64,000 nt of DNA from an uncultured Pelagibacteraceae bacterium (GTDB lineage Bacteria; Pseudomonadota; Alphaproteobacteria; Pelagibacterales; Pelagibacteraceae): contig CABYPZ010000004.1 of assembly GCA_902521005.1 (NCBI GenBank), forward strand, positions 1-64,000, read 5' to 3'. The translations under genes and the position numbers were made by a program. The notes beneath the pieces were generated by a model. The model had not been told where the DNA came from and searched no databases. It saw only the letters and a program-made list of their open reading frames with translations. Every line of letters starts with the position of its first letter. Position 1 is the first letter of the stretch. Below are positions 38,138 through 47,063 of the stretch, in pieces.

Positions 38138-39004
38138 TTAAATTAATTTTTTTAAATATTTTGAATATTCACAATTACCATAAAACTTAATAGAAGCATT
38201 AATGTGTTTTTTTGATATCCATTTATTTTTAAGAGCAATTTCTTCTAGACAAGCAACATTTTTTTTACTTTTTTGCTGAATTGATGAAACAAATTTATTA
38301 GTTTTATAATAATCATCTATTGAACCAGCATCAAACCAATATGTACCTTTTCCTGTTGAAGTAGCATAAAGTTCTTTTTTGTTTAGGTACATTTTAAGTA
38401 AATCAGTAATCTCAAGCTCTCCTCTAGTTGAGGGTTTTAATTTTTTTGAAAATTCAACAACCCTACTATCAAAAAAATACAAACCAGTAATCGCAAGGTT
38501 TGAGTACTTTTTTTTTGGTTTTTCTTTAATTCCTAATATCTGATTTTTAGAGTTTGTCTTGGCTACACCAAACAAATGTGGATTTTTAACTTTATGCAAG
38601 AAAACTTCAGCACCATTTTTTAATTGATTTGAGTTTTTAAGTTTTCTATTTAAAGAATTTCCATAAAAAAAATTATCTCCTAAAATCAAAGCTACATTAT
38701 TTTTTCCTATAAATTTTTTTCCTAAAATAAAAGCATCTGGCAAACCTTTTGGATAGGATTGTTCCTTGTATTTAATTTTAATACCTAAGTTTTTTCCATT
38801 TGGTAAAAGTTTTTTATAAGTCTTTGTCTCTCCTTTATTAACTATAATTAAAATATCTTTTATTTTAGCCATCATTAAAATCGATAATGAGTAATAAATT
38901 ATAGGTTTGTCATAAATTGGTAAAAGTTGTTTATTTACTGATTTTGTTAAAGGACTCATTCGTGTTCCGTGACCACCAGACAAAACTATTCCTTTATTGA
39001 TCAT
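38138..39004 (-). CDS. rmlA: Glucose-1-phosphate thymidylyltransferase
   Basis: Makes dTDP-glucose from dTTP and glucose-1-phosphate. The 288-residue protein has the nucleotidyltransferase motif LSGGHGTRMSPLTKSVNKQLLP (about 8-29), YKEQSYPKGLPDAFILGKKFI, LILGDNFFYG (metal Asp) and TGLYFFDSRVVEFSKKLKPSTRGELEITDLL. It overlaps rmlB by 4 bp. Length and motifs are normal for RmlA. It ends one base after the convergent GT-C gene. Confidence 0.93.
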   Translation of the reverse strand: MINKGIVLSGGHGTRMSPLTKSVNKQLLPIYDKPIIYYSLSILMMAKIKDILIIVNKGETKTYKKLLPNGKNLGIKIKYKEQSYPKGLPDAFILGKKFIGKNNVALILGDNFFYGNSLNRKLKNSNQLKNGAEVFLHKVKNPHLFGVAKTNSKNQILGIKEKPKKKYSNLAITGLYFFDSRVVEFSKKLKPSTRGELEITDLLKMYLNKKELYATSTGKGTYWFDAGSIDDYYKTNKFVSSIQQKSKKNVACLEEIALKNKWISKKHINASIKFYGNCEYSKYLKKLI

Positions 39005-40023
39005 TTGGTAATACCTAGTCTTCTAAGAATATCTTTTTTGTTCAATTTAGCGAAATATTTATAATTATTTTGGTACCATTCAAATGTTTCATTAAGACCT
39101 TTATTGATATTTGTTTTTGGTTTCCATTTTAGTGAATTCATAATTTTACTACTATCTAATGAATATCTAGTGTCATGACCTGGTCTGTCTTTAACAAATT
39201 TAATTTTTACATTTTTGCCAATATTTATTTTACTTTTTGCTAATTTAACTAGTTTTAAAACCAATAATTTATTTTTTAAAATATTACCTGAACCAATATT
39301 ATAAAAATTTCCTATGGAACCTTGTTTATAAATTTTAAATAGAGCTTCACAATGATCTTTTACGTATATCCACTCTCTTTCATTGATACCACGACCATAG
39401 ATCGGAAGATTTCTATTATTAAAAATATTATAAATTATTTTTGGAATTAGTTTTTCAGGATGTTGCTTCGGTCCATAATTATTTGAACAATTTGTAATTA
39501 TACCTGGAAAATCAAATGTTCTTATATAAGAATAAACTAAATGATCTGAAGACGCCTTAGATGCAGCATATGGTGAACTTGGTTTGTAAGAATCTTTTTC
39601 TTTCGATTTTCCTTTTATTTTATCTCCGTAGACTTCATCAGTTGAAATATGTACGAATTTAAATTTTTTATTCTTTTTTGTGTAATTTTTACAAACTTGC
39701 AGTAAAGAAAAAACACCAGTTATATTACTTGAGATAAAATGTTTTGCATTATCAATAGATCTGTCTACGTGAGTTTCTGCAGCTAAATTAAAGACACAAA
39801 CTGGTTTATATTTATTTAAAATTTTTGAAATTTTAGATTGGTTATTTATATCACATTTAATAAATTTATAATTCTTATTATCTTTAAAATCTTTTGTATT
39901 ATAAAAATTAGAGGAATAACTAACTTTATCTATATTAATTACTTTACAATTATTTTTTAACAGTAGCTCAATTAAATTACTTCCTATAAAACCAAGACCA
40001 CCAGTGACTAATAATGTTTTCAT
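39001..40023 (-). CDS. rmlB: dTDP-glucose 4,6-dehydratase
   Basis: Extended short-chain dehydrogenase, 340 residues. TGGLGFIGSNLIELLL binds NAD, FKFVHISTDEVYGD contains the active-site Thr-Asp-Glu triad, and SPYAASKASSDHLVYSY gives the YxxxK pair; NCSNNYGPKQHPEKLIP is the substrate loop. Produces dTDP-4-keto-6-deoxyglucose for RmlC/RmlD. It begins the rmlB-rmlA unit; 45 bp separate it from the apt gene upstream on the same strand. Confidence 0.94.
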   Translation of the reverse strand: MKTLLVTGGLGFIGSNLIELLLKNNCKVINIDKVSYSSNFYNTKDFKDNKNYKFIKCDINNQSKISKILNKYKPVCVFNLAAETHVDRSIDNAKHFISSNITGVFSLLQVCKNYTKKNKKFKFVHISTDEVYGDKIKGKSKEKDSYKPSSPYAASKASSDHLVYSYIRTFDFPGIITNCSNNYGPKQHPEKLIPKIIYNIFNNRNLPIYGRGINEREWIYVKDHCEALFKIYKQGSIGNFYNIGSGNILKNKLLVLKLVKLAKSKINIGKNVKIKFVKDRPGHDTRYSLDSSKIMNSLKWKPKTNINKGLNETFEWYQNNYKYFAKLNKKDILRRLGITK

Positions 40024-40068: not shown

Positions 40069-40596
40069 CTAATGGCCAGGAAATTCAATTAAATTCTCAA
40101 TTTTATATCCTTCTTTAATCAAATCATCGCATCCGCCTAAGTCAAAAAGATTTATAACAAATATAAACGCTGAAATGTTTCCTTTTGACATTTCAATAAG
40201 TTTTGCAGCAGCTTTTGCTGTTCCTCCAGTAGCAATTAGATCGTCAATAATTAATACAGAGTCATTTTCATCTATAGAATCTTTATGCATTTCGATTGTT
40301 GCTGTTCCATACTCAAGTTCAAAATCTACAGAATAAGTATCTGCAGGTAATTTATTTTTTTTTCTTAATAATATAAATGGTTTTTTTAATAAATAGGAAA
40401 CAGCAGAAGCAAAAACAAATCCCCGGGATTCGATTGCTGCAATTTTATCAATTTTATAATTTTTTGATCTTTGCACAATTTGATTTATTGTTTCAGCAAA
40501 TGCAGTTTCATTTTTGATTAAAGTTGTAATGTCCCTAAATAAAATACCTTTTTTTGGATAGTCTGGAATTGATCTAATATATTCTTTTAAATCCAT
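40069..40596 (-). CDS. apt: Adenine phosphoribosyltransferase
   Basis: Salvages adenine to AMP with PRPP. The 175-residue protein has IPDYPKKGILFRDITTLI (about 10-27), IAAIESRGFVFASAVSYLL, the KKPFILLRKKNKLPADTY flexible loop and the PRPP motif VLIIDDLIATGGTAKAAAKLI (about 118-138). It is divergent from mtnP with a 40-bp gap. MtnP releases adenine, so the divergent pair makes functional sense as a single salvage module. Confidence 0.94.
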   Translation of the reverse strand: MDLKEYIRSIPDYPKKGILFRDITTLIKNETAFAETINQIVQRSKNYKIDKIAAIESRGFVFASAVSYLLKKPFILLRKKNKLPADTYSVDFELEYGTATIEMHKDSIDENDSVLIIDDLIATGGTAKAAAKLIEMSKGNISAFIFVINLFDLGGCDDLIKEGYKIENLIEFPGH

Positions 40597-40636
40597 AAAT
40601 TTTTGAGTTATAAATAATTAAATCATTTTAAATAAT

Positions 40637-41506
40637 ATGACAAACAAATTAGCTATAATTGGTGGAAGTGGGTTGTATGACGTTGAAGATTTTAAAGATA
40701 GGGAGTTTTTAGATATCAAAACACCCTGGGGATCTCCCTCAGATCAAATATTAAAAACAAAATTTAATGAAAAAGAAGTTTTTTTTCTTCCTAGACATGG
40801 GAAAGGTCATTTTATATCCCCTTCAAAAATAAATTTTAGAGCAAATATAGATGCACTTAAACAATTGGGAGTTACTGATATTGTATCAGTCTCTGCCGTA
40901 GGGTCTTTAAAAGAAGATTTGCCCCCAGGAAAATTTGTAATTATTGATCAATTTATTGATAGAACTTTTGCAAGAAACAAAACTTTTTTTGATGACGAAA
41001 TAGTTGCTCATGTATCAATGGCTCATCCTACCTCAGTTGGATTAATGAATGCATGTGAAGAGTCAATTAAAAAAGAAAATATATCTTATCAAAGAGGGGG
41101 GACTTATGTTGTTATGGAGGGACCTCAATTTTCAACATTAGCAGAGTCTAATCTTTATAGATCCTGGAAAGCAGATGTAATTGGAATGACAAATATGCCT
41201 GAAGCAAAATTAGCTAGAGAATCTGAAATAAGATATGCATCAGTATCTATGGTAACTGATTATGATTGTTGGCACCCTGATCATGAAAATGTTGATGTAC
41301 AATCAGTAATAAAAGTCTTGTTAGGCAATGCTCAAAAAGCAAAAAATATGATTAAAAACCTAATTGAAAATTTTGAAAATCATATTGATCCAAAAGATCC
41401 TACAAATAATTGTTTAGATGTTGCAATTATTACAGCCCCAGAAAAAAGAACTCAAAAAACAAAAAATAAACTTAAAACTGTAGCTGGAAGAGTTTTAAAT
41501 AAATGA
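40637..41506 (+). CDS. mtnP: 5'-methylthioadenosine phosphorylase
   Basis: Cleaves MTA with phosphate to adenine and 5-methylthioribose-1-phosphate. The 289-residue protein shows LAIIGGSGLYDVEDF, PRHGKGHFISPSKINFRANIDAL, VSVSAVGSLKEDLPPG and EGPQFSTLAESNLYRSW, then GMTNMPEAKLARE, all as in MTAP-type trimeric phosphorylases rather than PNP. The start of a five-gene string joined by ATGA overlaps. MTA would come from the spermidine synthase encoded at the end of the same string. Confidence 0.94.
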   Translation: MTNKLAIIGGSGLYDVEDFKDREFLDIKTPWGSPSDQILKTKFNEKEVFFLPRHGKGHFISPSKINFRANIDALKQLGVTDIVSVSAVGSLKEDLPPGKFVIIDQFIDRTFARNKTFFDDEIVAHVSMAHPTSVGLMNACEESIKKENISYQRGGTYVVMEGPQFSTLAESNLYRSWKADVIGMTNMPEAKLARESEIRYASVSMVTDYDCWHPDHENVDVQSVIKVLLGNAQKAKNMIKNLIENFENHIDPKDPTNNCLDVAIITAPEKRTQKTKNKLKTVAGRVLNK

Positions 41507-41955
41507 GGAAAAATAATGTTTTAAATGGAACTTGTGGTTGTGGAAATGTAAAATATAAAATTATTGGTAAACCTTTATTTACCCAAGCATGTCACTGCAA
41601 GGACTGCAAAAAATCAACTGGATCTTCATTTGTTATTCATACTATGGTTCTTGAAAATGATTTTCAGGTAAATGGAGATATTGCATCAATAGAATTACCA
41701 ACAGGTAGTGGAAAAGGTGTTAATGCTTATTTCTGTATTATTTGTGGTGTGTATTTATTCTGTAAATATAATATATCGAAAGGTAGAGTTGCTGTCAGAA
41801 CTCAAACCTTAGAAAATTCAATTGAACCTCAAGCACATATTTTTGTAAAAGATAAAGACCCATGGATTCAAATTACAAACAAAGAAATTTGTCATGATAA
41901 AATGTATGACAGGGAAAAAACTTGGCCAAATGAAAGTCTTGAGAGGATCAAATGA
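41503..41955 (+). CDS. GFA-family (glutathione-dependent formaldehyde-activating/CENP-V-like) zinc protein
   Basis: The 150-residue beta-rich zinc protein has the family cysteines: GTCGCGNVKYKI (about 9-20), the ACHCKDCKKSTGSSF motif (about 31-45) and a later FCIICGVYLF pair. Relatives include the formaldehyde-activating Gfa and proteins of unknown role. It overlaps mtnP (ATGA) and mtnA (ATGA), so it is translated as part of the MTA salvage operon. A role in handling a small aldehyde is a reasonable inference because the pathway may yield methylthioacetaldehyde. Confidence 0.83.
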   Translation: MRKNNVLNGTCGCGNVKYKIIGKPLFTQACHCKDCKKSTGSSFVIHTMVLENDFQVNGDIASIELPTGSGKGVNAYFCIICGVYLFCKYNISKGRVAVRTQTLENSIEPQAHIFVKDKDPWIQITNKEICHDKMYDREKTWPNESLERIK

Positions 41956-43022
41956 AAATAGAGGGTAAAGAATACCATACAATTTGGTTTGAAAATTATA
42001 CTGTTAAAATTATTGATCAAACAAAGCTTCCACATAAATTTTTAATTAAAGATCTTAAAACAGTAAAAGATTCAATAAATGCAATTAAAACAATGGAGGT
42101 GAGGGGTGCTCCTTTAATTGGGGCCACAGCTGCTTACGGAATGGTTCTTGCAATCATTGAAAATAACGATCAGTCTTTTTTAAAAACATCAGCAAGAGAA
42201 TTAATAAATTCTAGACCAACAGCAATAAATTTGAAGTGGGCTGTAGATAGAATGATGAATAAGCTTTCAGGTTTAAATAGTGATAAAATTTTAGAAATAG
42301 CATTAAATGAAGCACAATTGATCTGTAAAGAGGATATTTCATTTTGTGAAAGTATAGGTATCAATGGACTAAAGGTAATTGAGGAAATTTATAATAAAAA
42401 AAAAGATACAGTAAATATTTTAACACATTGTAACGCAGGCTGGCTTGCAACAATTGATTGGGGTACTGCGACATCTCCAATTTATCATGCACACAAAAAA
42501 GGCATTCCAGTTCATGTTTGGGCAGATGAAACTAGACCAAGAAATCAAGGTGCAAATTTAACTTCATATGAACTAAATGAAGAGGGAATTAAGAATACAA
42601 TTATTGCAGATAATACTGGTGGCATTTTAATGCAAAGAGGTGATGTAGATATGTGTATTGTAGGAACAGATAGAACTTTAGCTAACGGTGATGTATGCAA
42701 TAAAGTTGGAACATATCTTAAAGCACTAGCAGCACATGATAATAATATTCCTTTCTATGTTGCTTTGCCAAGCTCAACTATAGATTGGAATACCAAAAAT
42801 TATAAAGATATTCCAATTGAAAAAAGAAATTCAGAGGAACTTTCACAAATTGAAGGTTTAGATGAAAACGGGAATATAAAAAAAGTACAAATATACCCAA
42901 AAAAAAGTAAAGCAATGAACTTGGCTTTTGACGTAACTCCAGCAAAATATGTTACTGGTTTGATTACTGAAAAAGGAATTTGTGAAGCATCTGAGAAAGG
43001 ATTGAAAAATCTTTTTAAATGA
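41952..43022 (+). CDS. mtnA: S-methyl-5-thioribose-1-phosphate isomerase
   Basis: Isomerises methylthioribose-1-phosphate to methylthioribulose-1-phosphate. The 356-residue protein has MEVRGAPLIGATAAYGM (about 50-66), the catalytic Cys in NILTHCNAGWLAT (about 160), HVWADETRPRNQGANLTSYEL and the Asp in CIVGTDRTLANGDVCNKVGTY. These distinguish MtnA from eIF2B-like proteins. Full length. It overlaps GFA and aldolase genes by 4 bp each. Confidence 0.94.
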   Translation: MKIEGKEYHTIWFENYTVKIIDQTKLPHKFLIKDLKTVKDSINAIKTMEVRGAPLIGATAAYGMVLAIIENNDQSFLKTSARELINSRPTAINLKWAVDRMMNKLSGLNSDKILEIALNEAQLICKEDISFCESIGINGLKVIEEIYNKKKDTVNILTHCNAGWLATIDWGTATSPIYHAHKKGIPVHVWADETRPRNQGANLTSYELNEEGIKNTIIADNTGGILMQRGDVDMCIVGTDRTLANGDVCNKVGTYLKALAAHDNNIPFYVALPSSTIDWNTKNYKDIPIEKRNSEELSQIEGLDENGNIKKVQIYPKKSKAMNLAFDVTPAKYVTGLITEKGICEASEKGLKNLFK

Positions 43023-43678
43023 AAAATTTAGATTATAGAAAAAAAATTATTGAATTTTCATTGAAACTTAACACGACTAATCTTTCACCTCTCAGATCTG
43101 GAAATATTTCTATTCGTATAAATGAGGATGATGAAGACGGATATTTAATTACTCCATCAGGAAAAAAATATGAAAATTTAAAACCCGAGGATATTGTATT
43201 TATGCCTTTTAATAAAAAAAACGAATCCTTTGATGAAAAAGATAAAAATCCCTCTTCTGAATGGAGATTTCACCATGATATTTATAAAAATAAAAAAGAA
43301 GCTAAAGCTATAGTCCATGCGCATTCACCAAATGCTACCGCAGTTTCATCACATGGAAAACCTGTTCCACCTTTTCATTACATGGTAGCATTAGCAGGCG
43401 GTGAAGATATTAAATGTGCAAACTACGCAACTTTTGGAACTAAAGAGCTGTCTAATAATGTTATTAAGGCTTTAGAAAATAGAAAAGCATGTCTAATGTC
43501 AAATCACGGACAGGTTGCTTTTGGAAATAATTTAGAAGAAGCTTTTGAACTAGCATTAGAGATAGAAAATATTTGCCATCAATATGTTATTGCTCTAAAA
43601 ATAGGAGATCCAAAGATTCTTTCGTTTAAAGAAATGAAAAAAGTTTTGGAAAAAGCTAAAAATTATAAAAAAGAGTAA
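43019..43678 (+). CDS. Class II aldolase/adducin-family protein of the MTA salvage operon
   Basis: The 219-residue protein has the zinc site of class II aldolases: GNISIRINEDD, AIVHAHSPNATAVSS (His-x-His), the glycine-rich KACLMSNHGQVAFGNNLEEAFELALEIE with the third His. Size and fold fit fuculose-phosphate-type aldolases, MtnB dehydratases and the aldolase of the DHAP shunt. Being tied to mtnA by an ATGA overlap, its substrate is probably methylthioribulose-1-phosphate: either dehydration (MtnB) or retro-aldol cleavage to DHAP and methylthioacetaldehyde. No mtnC, mtnD or mtnK gene is seen nearby, which favours the second. Confidence 0.8.
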   Translation: MKNLDYRKKIIEFSLKLNTTNLSPLRSGNISIRINEDDEDGYLITPSGKKYENLKPEDIVFMPFNKKNESFDEKDKNPSSEWRFHHDIYKNKKEAKAIVHAHSPNATAVSSHGKPVPPFHYMVALAGGEDIKCANYATFGTKELSNNVIKALENRKACLMSNHGQVAFGNNLEEAFELALEIENICHQYVIALKIGDPKILSFKEMKKVLEKAKNYKKE

Positions 43679-43681
43679 TTT

Positions 43682-44722
43682 ATGATTAAAGTTGGGGAGC
43701 ATGTTACCTTAGATATTATTGGAACAAGAAAAGAGTATGATCCTTCTTTTTATGAAGGTCTGGTACATAAAATTGCAGACAAAGCAAAAGTTACTGTCTT
43801 AAATATAGCGAAATATAAATTCGAACCTCAAGGTTTTACTTTGGTAGCTTTATTAGCTGAAAGTCATATTAGTTTTCACACTTATCCAGAAAAAGGAATA
43901 ATCAGTTTTGATTTTTATACATGTGGAACTGTTTCGCCATCAATCGCATTGGAAGTCTTAAAAAAAGAAATTGACCATAAAAGAATTATTAAAAAAGAAT
44001 TAAATAGAGATACAATTTCCTTTTATCATGATCTTACTAGTACAAAAGGTTTAAAGAAGAATTATCTTGTAAAAGAAGTCTTAGAGGATTTTACATCAAA
44101 AGTAGGACAACATGTTGAAATCCTAGATCTAGTTGAGTATGGAAAATCTTTATTTATAGATAATGATTTACAGGTTGCTGAAAAAGATGAACATATTTAC
44201 AGCGGTACTTTTGTAAATTCTGCACTTAAATTAAACAATAGCAAAGATAGCGCTGCAATTATCGGAGGTGGAGATGGTGGAGTTGCAAGAGAGTGTATTT
44301 CAAAAGGTTTTGGTTTCATTGATTGGTACGAATTGGATCCTGAAGTTGTTGAAGTTTGCAAAAAACATATTGGCTCTATAGGAAAAAATGCAACAGAAAA
44401 AAATTCTGTTAAATGTGTATGGGGCGATGCTTTTGAAAGTATAAAAAAAGTTGACGATGATAGTTATGATAAAATATTTATTGACCTAAATGATGATCAG
44501 TTTTGTATTGATCTTGCAGCAAAAAACATGAACTCTTTGGTTAGAATTCTAAAACCAAATGGGGTTATAACGGCTCAAGTAGGAAGCCAAGATAAAAAAC
44601 CTAAACAAGTAGAAAATTGGCTAAAAGTGTTTAACAAAAATTTTGGTAATGCTACCTTAGATAGAGTTTATATTCCAAGTTTTGATAGTTCCTGGAATTT
44701 TTACTCATCAATAAATCATTAA
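43682..44722 (+). CDS. speDE: Fused S-adenosylmethionine decarboxylase-spermidine synthase
   Basis: Two polyamine enzymes in one 346-residue chain. Residues 1-115 are a class 1B AdoMet decarboxylase: EPQGFTLVALLAESHISFHTYPE, where Ser61 after Glu60 should self-cleave to the pyruvoyl cofactor, plus DFYTCG. Residues 120-346 are a SpeE aminopropyltransferase with IIGGGDGGVAREC (about 193-205), WYELDPEVVEVCKKH and FIDLNDDQFC. The linker near 118-130 is short. Self-cleavage would release a small beta chain. The by-product MTA feeds mtnP at the head of the operon. Fusions of this type are reported in some bacteria as I recall. It starts 3 bp after the aldolase stop. Confidence 0.9.
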   Translation: MIKVGEHVTLDIIGTRKEYDPSFYEGLVHKIADKAKVTVLNIAKYKFEPQGFTLVALLAESHISFHTYPEKGIISFDFYTCGTVSPSIALEVLKKEIDHKRIIKKELNRDTISFYHDLTSTKGLKKNYLVKEVLEDFTSKVGQHVEILDLVEYGKSLFIDNDLQVAEKDEHIYSGTFVNSALKLNNSKDSAAIIGGGDGGVARECISKGFGFIDWYELDPEVVEVCKKHIGSIGKNATEKNSVKCVWGDAFESIKKVDDDSYDKIFIDLNDDQFCIDLAAKNMNSLVRILKPNGVITAQVGSQDKKPKQVENWLKVFNKNFGNATLDRVYIPSFDSSWNFYSSINH

Positions 44723-44790
44723 TTTATCTTTTTAAATCTTAAAATTTGTGGAATAATATAATTATATTAATATTAATACGGGGGAAAATA

Positions 44791-45654
44791 ATGAAATTTA
44801 AAAAAATTATATTAAGCGTTTTTGCTTCTTTAATTCTTTTTACTTCAACCCTATCTGCAGACACTATTAGAATTGCAACCGAAGGTGCTTACCCTCCATG
44901 GAATTCTAAATCAGAAGATGGAAAGCTTGTAGGATTTGAAGTTGAACTTGCAAACTGGCTATGTATTTACATGGAAAGAAATTGCAAAATCGTTGAACAA
45001 GATTGGGATGGAATGATTCCAGCTTTAAGAATGAGAAAATACGATGCTATTATGGCAGGTATGTCTATTACAGATGAAAGAAAGAAAGTAATAACTTTTT
45101 CACAAGGATATGCTGATGAAGTTGCTTCTTTAGCAGTTATGAAAGGTTCAGATCTTGAGGCAATGGACACTCCAGAAGGTATAAATTTATCTTTAGGTGG
45201 TAAAGATGTTAAGTCAGCTCTTAAAACTATTACAGGAGCTTTAGCTGGCAAAACTGTTTGTACTCAAACTGGAACAATTCACCAAAACTTTTTAGAATCT
45301 GGAGATGTAGGCTCAGTTAATGTTAGAACTTACAAAACTCAAGATGAAGTAAACTTAGATTTAGCAGCAGGAAGATGTGATGCAGCATTAGCAGCAGCAG
45401 TAGCATTTACTGATTATGCTGATAAATCTGGAAAAGATGTTGTATTAGTTGGACCAACTTTTTCAGGCGGACACTTTGGAAACGGAGTAGGTGTTGGCCT
45501 TAGACAAGACGCTCAATTTGGTTCAGACTCAGCTCTTGGTAAAAGAGATGCTCAACTACTTGTAGATTTCAATAAAGCCATTGATAAAGCAAGAAGTACA
45601 GGAAAAATTAGTGAACTTGCAACTAAGTGGTTTGGCTTTGACGCATCAATGTAA
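44791..45654 (+). CDS. Polar amino acid-type ABC substrate-binding protein
   Basis: The track begins at 44746, but the ATG at 44791 is right: it follows GGGGGAAA and opens a signal peptide (MKFKKIILSVFASLILF) ending TLSA before DTIRIATEGAYPPWNS, the classic family 3 binding-protein start. The mature protein has FEVELANWLC, DWDGMIPALRMRKYDAIMAGMSITDERKK and CTQTGTIHQNFL, as in lysine/arginine/ornithine or octopine-type binding proteins. 287 residues, no lipobox. Just after the polyamine operon, so a basic amino acid or polyamine precursor is a plausible ligand (inference). A terminator hairpin follows. Confidence 0.9.
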   Translation: MKFKKIILSVFASLILFTSTLSADTIRIATEGAYPPWNSKSEDGKLVGFEVELANWLCIYMERNCKIVEQDWDGMIPALRMRKYDAIMAGMSITDERKKVITFSQGYADEVASLAVMKGSDLEAMDTPEGINLSLGGKDVKSALKTITGALAGKTVCTQTGTIHQNFLESGDVGSVNVRTYKTQDEVNLDLAAGRCDAALAAAVAFTDYADKSGKDVVLVGPTFSGGHFGNGVGVGLRQDAQFGSDSALGKRDAQLLVDFNKAIDKARSTGKISELATKWFGFDASM

Positions 45655-45696: not shown

Positions 45697-46389
45697 ATGG
45701 AACTAATATCATTTGGAGACAAAGGTTGGGGTGATGAGCTTTTTGTAGCTACACTCATGACAATTGCTGTTGCAATTACGGCAATGTTAATTGGTTTTTT
45801 ATTTGCATTAATATTTACTCCATTAAAACTCTCAAAATATAAAATATTAAACTTAATTGCTAATTCATACACTACAGTTGTTAGAGGTGTTCCAGAGCTT
45901 TTAGTTATTTACCTTTTCTTTTTTGGAGGAAGTGGAGCAATAATGTATGTTGCTCAAATATTTGGTTATTATGATTATATTGAAATTAATGCTTTTTTAA
46001 CTGGTGCAATTTCAATTGGAATCATTTCTGGAGCTTATTCTACTGAAGTATTTAGAGGAGCTATTCAATCTATAGACAAAGGTCAGTTTGAAGCTTGTCG
46101 TGTTTTAGGTTTAAAAAAATATATTTATTTTTTAAAAGTTATAATACCTCAGATGTTAAGGTTGGCCATACCAAATCTGAGTAATGTTTGGCAAATAACT
46201 TTAAAAGATACATCTTTGATATCTGTTACTGGATTAGTAGAAATTATGAGACAATCTTATATTGCAGCAGGATCTACTAGAGATCCACTGTTCTTTTACT
46301 CATTTGCAGCACTTTTATATCTATTACTTACTTATTTAAGTATGAAATTTATTAACAAATTAGAAAAAAATTATAGCAGAGGATATTAA
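45697..46389 (+). CDS. Polar amino acid ABC permease, HisQ/OccQ-like
   Basis: The 230-residue permease has about five hydrophobic segments and the His/Glu/Gln/Arg-type permease pattern: VATLMTIAVAITAMLIGF, ANSYTTVVRGVPELLVIYLFFFGG (with the RGVPELL signature), and the EAA loop FEACRVLGLKKYIYFLKVIIPQMLRLAIPNL. It shares a one-base overlap with the next permease. No Shine-Dalgarno is apparent; the hairpin occupies the leader. Confidence 0.9.
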   Translation: MELISFGDKGWGDELFVATLMTIAVAITAMLIGFLFALIFTPLKLSKYKILNLIANSYTTVVRGVPELLVIYLFFFGGSGAIMYVAQIFGYYDYIEINAFLTGAISIGIISGAYSTEVFRGAIQSIDKGQFEACRVLGLKKYIYFLKVIIPQMLRLAIPNLSNVWQITLKDTSLISVTGLVEIMRQSYIAAGSTRDPLFFYSFAALLYLLLTYLSMKFINKLEKNYSRGY

Positions 46390-47063
46390 TGGATTTAGAA
46401 TTAATAATCACAAGTTTTCCAAAATTACTCAGCGCAACTTTGATAACTTTAAAACTTTTATCTGCATCATTATTTTTTGGTTTGTTGTTAGGTTTGTTTT
46501 TTGCAATTTTAAGATTAAATCAAAGTAAATTAATTAGAGGTTTTGCATATGGTTATTCATATGTTTTCAGAGGAACACCACTTTTGGTTCAGATATTTAT
46601 TATTTATTTTGGTCTTGGACAAATTGAATATTTAAGAACAACTTTTTTATGGGTTATTTTAAAAGAACCTTACTGGTGTGCTATAATTGCATTTTCTTTA
46701 AACACTGGAGCGTATACTTCAGAAATATTGAGATCAGCATTTGAAACTATAAAACCTGGTATAGTTGAAGCTGGCAGAAGTTTAGGATTAAATAAAATGT
46801 CTATTTTTACAAAAATTCAAATTCCAATCGCAATAAAACAATCATTACCAGCATACGGTAATGAAATAATATTAATGCTTAAAGGAACATCCCTTGCAAG
46901 TACAGTAACACTTATGGATATAACTGGAGTTGCAAAATTTATAATTTCAACAACATTTAGACCAATAGAAGTATTTATTGTAGCTGGAAGTATTTATTTA
47001 TTTATTACTTTTCTTATTCACAATTTGATTAAATATTTAGAAAAAAAATATAGATATCAATAA
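46389..47063 (+). CDS. Polar amino acid ABC permease, HisM/OccM-like
   Basis: The 224-residue permease shows the family features LLSATLITLKLLSASLFFGLL, FRGTPLLVQIFIIYFGLGQ (RGTPLLVQ signature) and the EAA loop VEAGRSLGLNKMSIFTKIQIPIAIKQSLPAYGNE. Together with its partner it should form the heterodimeric channel. No ABC ATPase gene is found next to it or in the following genes; the ATPase must be elsewhere or shared. Confidence 0.9.
   Translation: MDLELIITSFPKLLSATLITLKLLSASLFFGLLLGLFFAILRLNQSKLIRGFAYGYSYVFRGTPLLVQIFIIYFGLGQIEYLRTTFLWVILKEPYWCAIIAFSLNTGAYTSEILRSAFETIKPGIVEAGRSLGLNKMSIFTKIQIPIAIKQSLPAYGNEIILMLKGTSLASTVTLMDITGVAKFIISTTFRPIEVFIVAGSIYLFITFLIHNLIKYLEKKYRYQ

Follow-up and report, generated by a model that had tools for sequence, protein, structure and literature searches.

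Stand-alone class 1b AdoMet decarboxylases (SpeD) and spermidine synthases (SpeE) carry out, as two separate proteins of which SpeE has its full-length C-terminus, the same reactions that are combined in one polypeptide in SpeD-SpeE fusions. Other bacterial fusions of this kind are said to have been described by Green et al. in 2011. The fusion of the SAR11 bacteria has itself been known since at least 2011, judging from the passages of PMC12803844 that cite Green et al. and of PMC8437039 that refer to their result. Two of its representatives, the AdoMet decarboxylase-aminopropyltransferase (APT) fusions of Candidatus Pelagibacter ubique HTCC1062 (WP_011282223) and Candidatus Pelagibacter sp. 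HTCC7211 (WP_008544956), were expressed and restored spermidine in E. coli lacking speD, which demonstrates that their SpeD part works. In cells lacking speE, they yield spermine and thermospermine, and norspermidine is formed from diaminopropane (PMC11107197). A study of SAR11 physiology likewise regards the enzyme as the product of a gene fusion, ascribes a broad substrate range to it and proposes its reversal (PMC8437039). Further fusions with the same domain order and logic are found in delta-proteobacteria and Krumholzibacteria (PMC12803844), and independent fusion origins have been reported. Human spermine synthase (PDB 3c6k), which descends from a bacterial fusion of the SpeD-APT sort, has the same two-domain layout; its N-terminal domain no longer decarboxylates AdoMet and mediates dimerization (PMC12803844).

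The gene considered here lies in a stretch of 64,000 nucleotides (the window; 29% G+C) from an uncultured Pelagibacteraceae bacterium, whose genome of about 1.0 Mb is 86% complete. It is a single uninterrupted ORF of 346 codons with an ATG start, located exactly where the first-pass annotation had placed an AdoMet decarboxylase fused to a spermidine synthase; the opposite strand beneath it is full of stops (Table 1). The SpeD part is matched by Pfam AdoMet_dc (E 2.8e-26) and by TIGR03330 (adenosylmethionine decarboxylase), and residues 170-343 are matched by Pfam Spermine_synth (E 6.1e-22; 78.5 versus 22.9 bits), while a match of Spermine_synt_N to residues 120-167 is weak and below cut-off. 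Both domains share one reading frame, as they do in the relatives. The claimed fusion of SpeD with an APT is thus borne out, and we put the probability that the gene is the SAR11 orthologue of the known bifunctional SpeD-aminopropyltransferase at roughly 93%. The window protein and the fusions from HTCC1062 and HTCC7211, which belong to the same family of bacteria and equally consist of a class 1b SpeD and a C-terminal APT, are almost certainly orthologous, with only sequence-level divergence to be expected. The enzyme is already known; the observation is correct and no discovery. The main added value, modest in both respects, is the conserved, swappable MTA-removal context of the gene and the truncation of its transferase.

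Table 1. Coordinates of the speDE gene, its functional elements and its neighbours in the window.
Feature	Position	Strand	Basis and remarks
apt, adenine phosphoribosyltransferase, divergent	40069..40596	-	TIGR01090, 198.7 bits (cut-off 185.85)
mtnP, MTA phosphorylase	40637..41506	+	PRK08931, 446.6 bits (cut-off 437); TIGR01694, 308.1 (cut-off 274.85)
GFA-family gene (gfa) between mtnP and mtnA	41503..41955	+	Pfam GFA; in a minority of relatives (8 related loci)
mtnA, methylthioribose-1-phosphate isomerase	41952..43022	+	TIGR00512, 417.9 bits (cut-off 279)
Class II aldolase	43019..43678	+	Pfam Aldolase_II; no NCBIfam model above cut-off
speDE fusion, class 1b AdoMet decarboxylase proenzyme and APT, 346 aa	43682..44722	+	ORF, domain matches, SAR11 orthologues
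SpeD domain, about residues 1-112	43682..44017	+	TIGR03330, residues 4-109; AdoMet decarboxylase structures PDB 2iii, 1tlu and 1vr7 over residues 2-120
Ser61 codon, predicted self-cleavage/pyruvoyl site (Glu60-Ser61)	43862..43864	+	Invariant in 109 SAR11 fusions; T. maritima S63 (PMC10407285)
His66 codon, processing residue	43877..43879	+	Invariant; T. maritima H68
Cys81 codon, processing and catalytic residue	43922..43924	+	Invariant; T. maritima C83
APT domain, about residues 123-346, lacking the ~50 residues of the canonical C-terminus	44048..44719	+	Alignment to solved spermidine synthases over residues 123-336
GGGDGG decarboxylated-AdoMet binding loop, residues 195-200	44264..44281	+	Invariant
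DLND motif, Asp268 and Asp271, corresponding to the catalytic DxxD of spermidine synthases	44483..44494	+	Aligned to Plasmodium spermidine synthase; invariant
Polar amino-acid type ABC substrate-binding protein	44746..45654	+	SBP_bac_3; specificity models below cut-off; adjoins speDE in 101/101 loci
Two ABC permease genes, same transporter	45697..47063	+	TIGR01726 above cut-off for both; conserved in 99/101 loci

The window protein was aligned with 111 others, of which 108 are SAR11 fusions and the remaining three are fusions of other proteobacteria. Across the resulting 109 SAR11 proteins, the three SpeD residues, whose spacing matches that in T. maritima (PMC10407285), as well as the GGGDGG loop and both aspartates of the DLND motif do not vary, and they are equally unvaried in the three other proteobacterial fusions. 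On the sequence level, this conservation of domains and active sites is far above chance. The cut that had been predicted before Ser61 finds its counterpart in the Glu60-Ser61 site, and the catalytic aspartate of the SpeE part, which the first-pass annotation had singled out, is retained. The proenzyme would hence cut itself between Glu60 and Ser61, with the short N-terminal beta chain remaining bound to the long alpha chain, and the latter would bear the pyruvoyl group together with the entire transferase. AlphaFold geometry was considered as support for the channelling of decarboxylated AdoMet that had been proposed on this basis and was rejected: the model is moderate (mean pLDDT 66, pTM 0.55), which makes the domain arrangement unreliable, and residues 106-127 between the domains fall below pLDDT 50. 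With this moderate model as query, human spermine synthase was the top Foldseek match (about 350 aligned columns).

Conceivably, the SpeD part could have turned into a pyruvoyl-dependent decarboxylase of arginine or ornithine, like the SpeD homologues of pelagiphages; such changes do occur in phages that infect SAR11 and in numerous bacteria (PMC9992855, PMC10407285). For the window protein, this is very improbable. A proline near the cleavage site is, according to the literature, fully conserved in true AdoMet decarboxylases but not in the arginine group; taken to be that of the H-T-x-P-E motif, it is invariant here (Pro69). Moreover, the SpeD domain passes the cut-off of TIGR03330 (92.8 bits, cut-off 75.65), and the rescue of the speD mutant by the orthologues (PMC11107197) equally argues for AdoMet as the substrate to be decarboxylated.

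With regard to the transferase, the NCBIfam SpeE equivalog models remain far under their cut-offs (TIGR00417, 93.7 versus 249.55 bits; PRK00811, 116.9 versus 260 bits), which points to a strongly diverged and shortened enzyme. Judged by these scores, the window APT is a member of the aminopropyltransferase superfamily and not a strict SpeE equivalog. Counted from the GGGDG loop up to the stop codon (44264-44722 in the window), the SAR11 copies examined have only 152 residues, whereas 200-206 residues are kept in one stand-alone SpeE and in three other bacterial fusions (L120, L121 and L123) that share domain order and logic with the window protein. The canonical C-terminal segment (YYNxxxH...FALP), which L121 and L123 possess and of which L120 and L129 have a similar form, is absent from the SAR11 copies examined. 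All 109 SAR11 fusions measure 346-349 residues, and the SAR11 APT ends about 50 residues before the other fusions and stand-alone SpeE.

By analogy with the close orthologues, for which both activities and the product range were shown by others, the window enzyme would decarboxylate AdoMet and transfer the aminopropyl group to putrescine to form spermidine, and then to spermidine to form spermine and thermospermine, with release of MTA. Of the earlier designation as a spermidine synthase, the aminopropyltransferase assignment therefore stands, but the implied strict specificity does not, since the product range of the tested orthologues makes this label too narrow; the norspermidine alternative that had also been raised is already answered for them, as they make this triamine when given diaminopropane (PMC11107197). 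Putrescine would most likely be supplied from arginine through the action of an arginine decarboxylase of the ODC-like type and an enzyme of the agmatinase family. The genome harbors, in a row, an alanine-racemase-fold ODC-like gene, a deoxyhypusine-synthase-like gene (labelled SpeY by position and by PMC9992855) and an arginase/agmatinase-family gene. The same run of arginine decarboxylase-like, SpeY-like and agmatinase-like genes has been published for Pelagibacter, whose corresponding ODC-like enzyme acts on arginine, not ornithine (PMC9992855). Taken together, a route from arginine via agmatine to putrescine is the likely diamine supply. A second Orn_Arg_deC match (L131) looks like LysA by sequence reading.

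The closest named loci all stem from uncultured Pelagibacteraceae or Candidatus Pelagibacter (75-99% identity). Nearly the whole family carries the same fusion at 57-99% identity, i.e. 109 of its approximately 123 genomes among the 148 genomes of the order that were searched, a count that omits two weak non-fusion matches and includes partly incomplete genomes. The fusion can be lost, given that it is missing from the near-complete genome G049 of another genus (single contig, 99% complete). Within the phylum, at least seven fused frames, those of the own family included, could be read from a search of 398 genomes, and three of these were confirmed to hold the SpeD site and the GGGDG loop within one frame. 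The statement of the first-pass annotation that such fusions are rare thus applies to the phylum but not to the own family, where the fusion is near-universal and has been on record since 2011 or earlier; it is uncommon in general and standard in SAR11. Split or unfused forms among the relatives were considered and dismissed, as the short matches in G127, G141, G178, G119 and G152:C21 stop at contig ends and represent truncated assemblies. In G152:C17 (L106, 401-1576), an unrelated N-terminal part that reads like an IMP/GMP dehydrogenase-family protein runs in frame into the C-terminal half of the fusion, which is possibly a misassembly.

The functional tie to MTA salvage that had been seen in the position of the gene is likewise confirmed, and is stronger than was apparent at the time: speDE closes an overlapping run of mtnP, gfa, mtnA and aldolase genes that all share its strand; neighbouring genes overlap by 4 bases at each of the three junctions up to the aldolase, and 3 bases separate the latter from speDE. 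We infer that the run from mtnP to speDE is co-transcribed. Its products may convert the released MTA into adenine, to be salvaged by Apt, as well as DHAP and a methylthio-aldehyde. This would correspond to the DHAP shunt in its mtnP variant, which has been described elsewhere (PMC10986504). MtnP, encoded by the only PNP_UDP_1 gene found in the 86% complete genome, and MtnA exceed their model cut-offs, while the aldolase is assigned by Pfam family only; from its context, it is most likely an Ald2-like methylthioribulose-1-phosphate aldolase. ARD/MtnD was not found in the genome at this completeness, a partial literature search yielded nothing that joins the DHAP shunt and Pelagibacter, and an Rfam search of the whole window, which covered riboswitches, gave no family except one tRNA.

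Across the loci, the order apt, mtnP, mtnA, aldolase, speDE and ABC transporter recurs. In one variant, an aldolase/short-chain dehydrogenase of 677 residues, encoded on the other strand, stands in for the small aldolase, and in another the whole mtnP-mtnA-aldolase set gives way to a nucleosidase-like gene of about 175 residues, whose presumed MTA specificity has to be read with its scores below all NCBIfam cut-offs in mind. Such alternative MTA-removal genes upstream of speDE are represented by the window (40069-43678) and by L013, L027, L057, L070, L100, L101, L115, L117 and L118. Among the 148 genomes, mtnP occurs in 98, the nucleosidase-like gene in 13 and both in none; the chance of this under random draw is about 2e-7, a figure that is too small owing to the relatedness of the genomes. 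The nucleosidase-like gene adjoins speDE in all nine genomes having both, and of the 90 genomes with mtnP and speDE on one contig, 87 have them within 7 kb of each other. At L084, L068, L074 and L087, no mtnP or mtnA is found near speDE; other catabolic genes lie upstream instead, which read as FAD monooxygenase-like and TRAP-type binding protein-like.

These neighbourhoods could be a mere product of genome streamlining without functional meaning; genes are compactly ordered in SAR11, and the downstream ABC transporter is as constant as any MTA gene. Yet, the differing replacements upstream of speDE all fit MTA removal, and phosphorylase and nucleosidase-like genes occur together in none of the 148 genomes, which renders this explanation unlikely. 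Tentatively, and at somewhat less than even odds, the SAR11 speDE locus may be regarded as an MTA-disposal slot, the upstream site of which is filled by different lineages with mutually exclusive sets: phosphorylase, isomerase and aldolase; phosphorylase and isomerase plus a bifunctional aldolase/dehydrogenase; or else a short gene resembling MTA nucleosidases. The choice would set whether the carbon of MTA is recovered as DHAP or lost, and would affect which way a possibly reversible transferase runs. Growth and metabolite data from SAR11 have been taken to suggest that the enzyme mainly runs in reverse in the cell to break down imported spermidine and norspermidine, with synthesis being secondary (PMC8437039), and the prominence of polyamine uptake in these bacteria would fit this view. 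This proposal derives from the physiology of one strain and is unclear in the other; moreover, reversal needs MTA, whereas MTA removal by the neighbouring genes would pull synthesis, in line with the fused SpeD. We thus consider predominant reversal improbable and favor the forward direction.

The gene context is tidy and possibly undescribed, a partial literature search having found no published account of a swappable MTA-removal context at SAR11 speDE. SAR11 bacteria rank with the most abundant bacteria on Earth, and polyamines account for a notable share of the substances they take up; a coupling of polyamine synthesis to MTA disposal suggests how their streamlined cells handle this by-product. 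The aldolase route would give a methylthio-aldehyde, which raises the question of the fate of its sulfur in the ocean. On the far side of apt, nucleotide-sugar genes (dTDP-glucose type, by reading of the translations) adjoin the locus at 38138-40023 of the window, suggesting a nearby surface-polysaccharide region.
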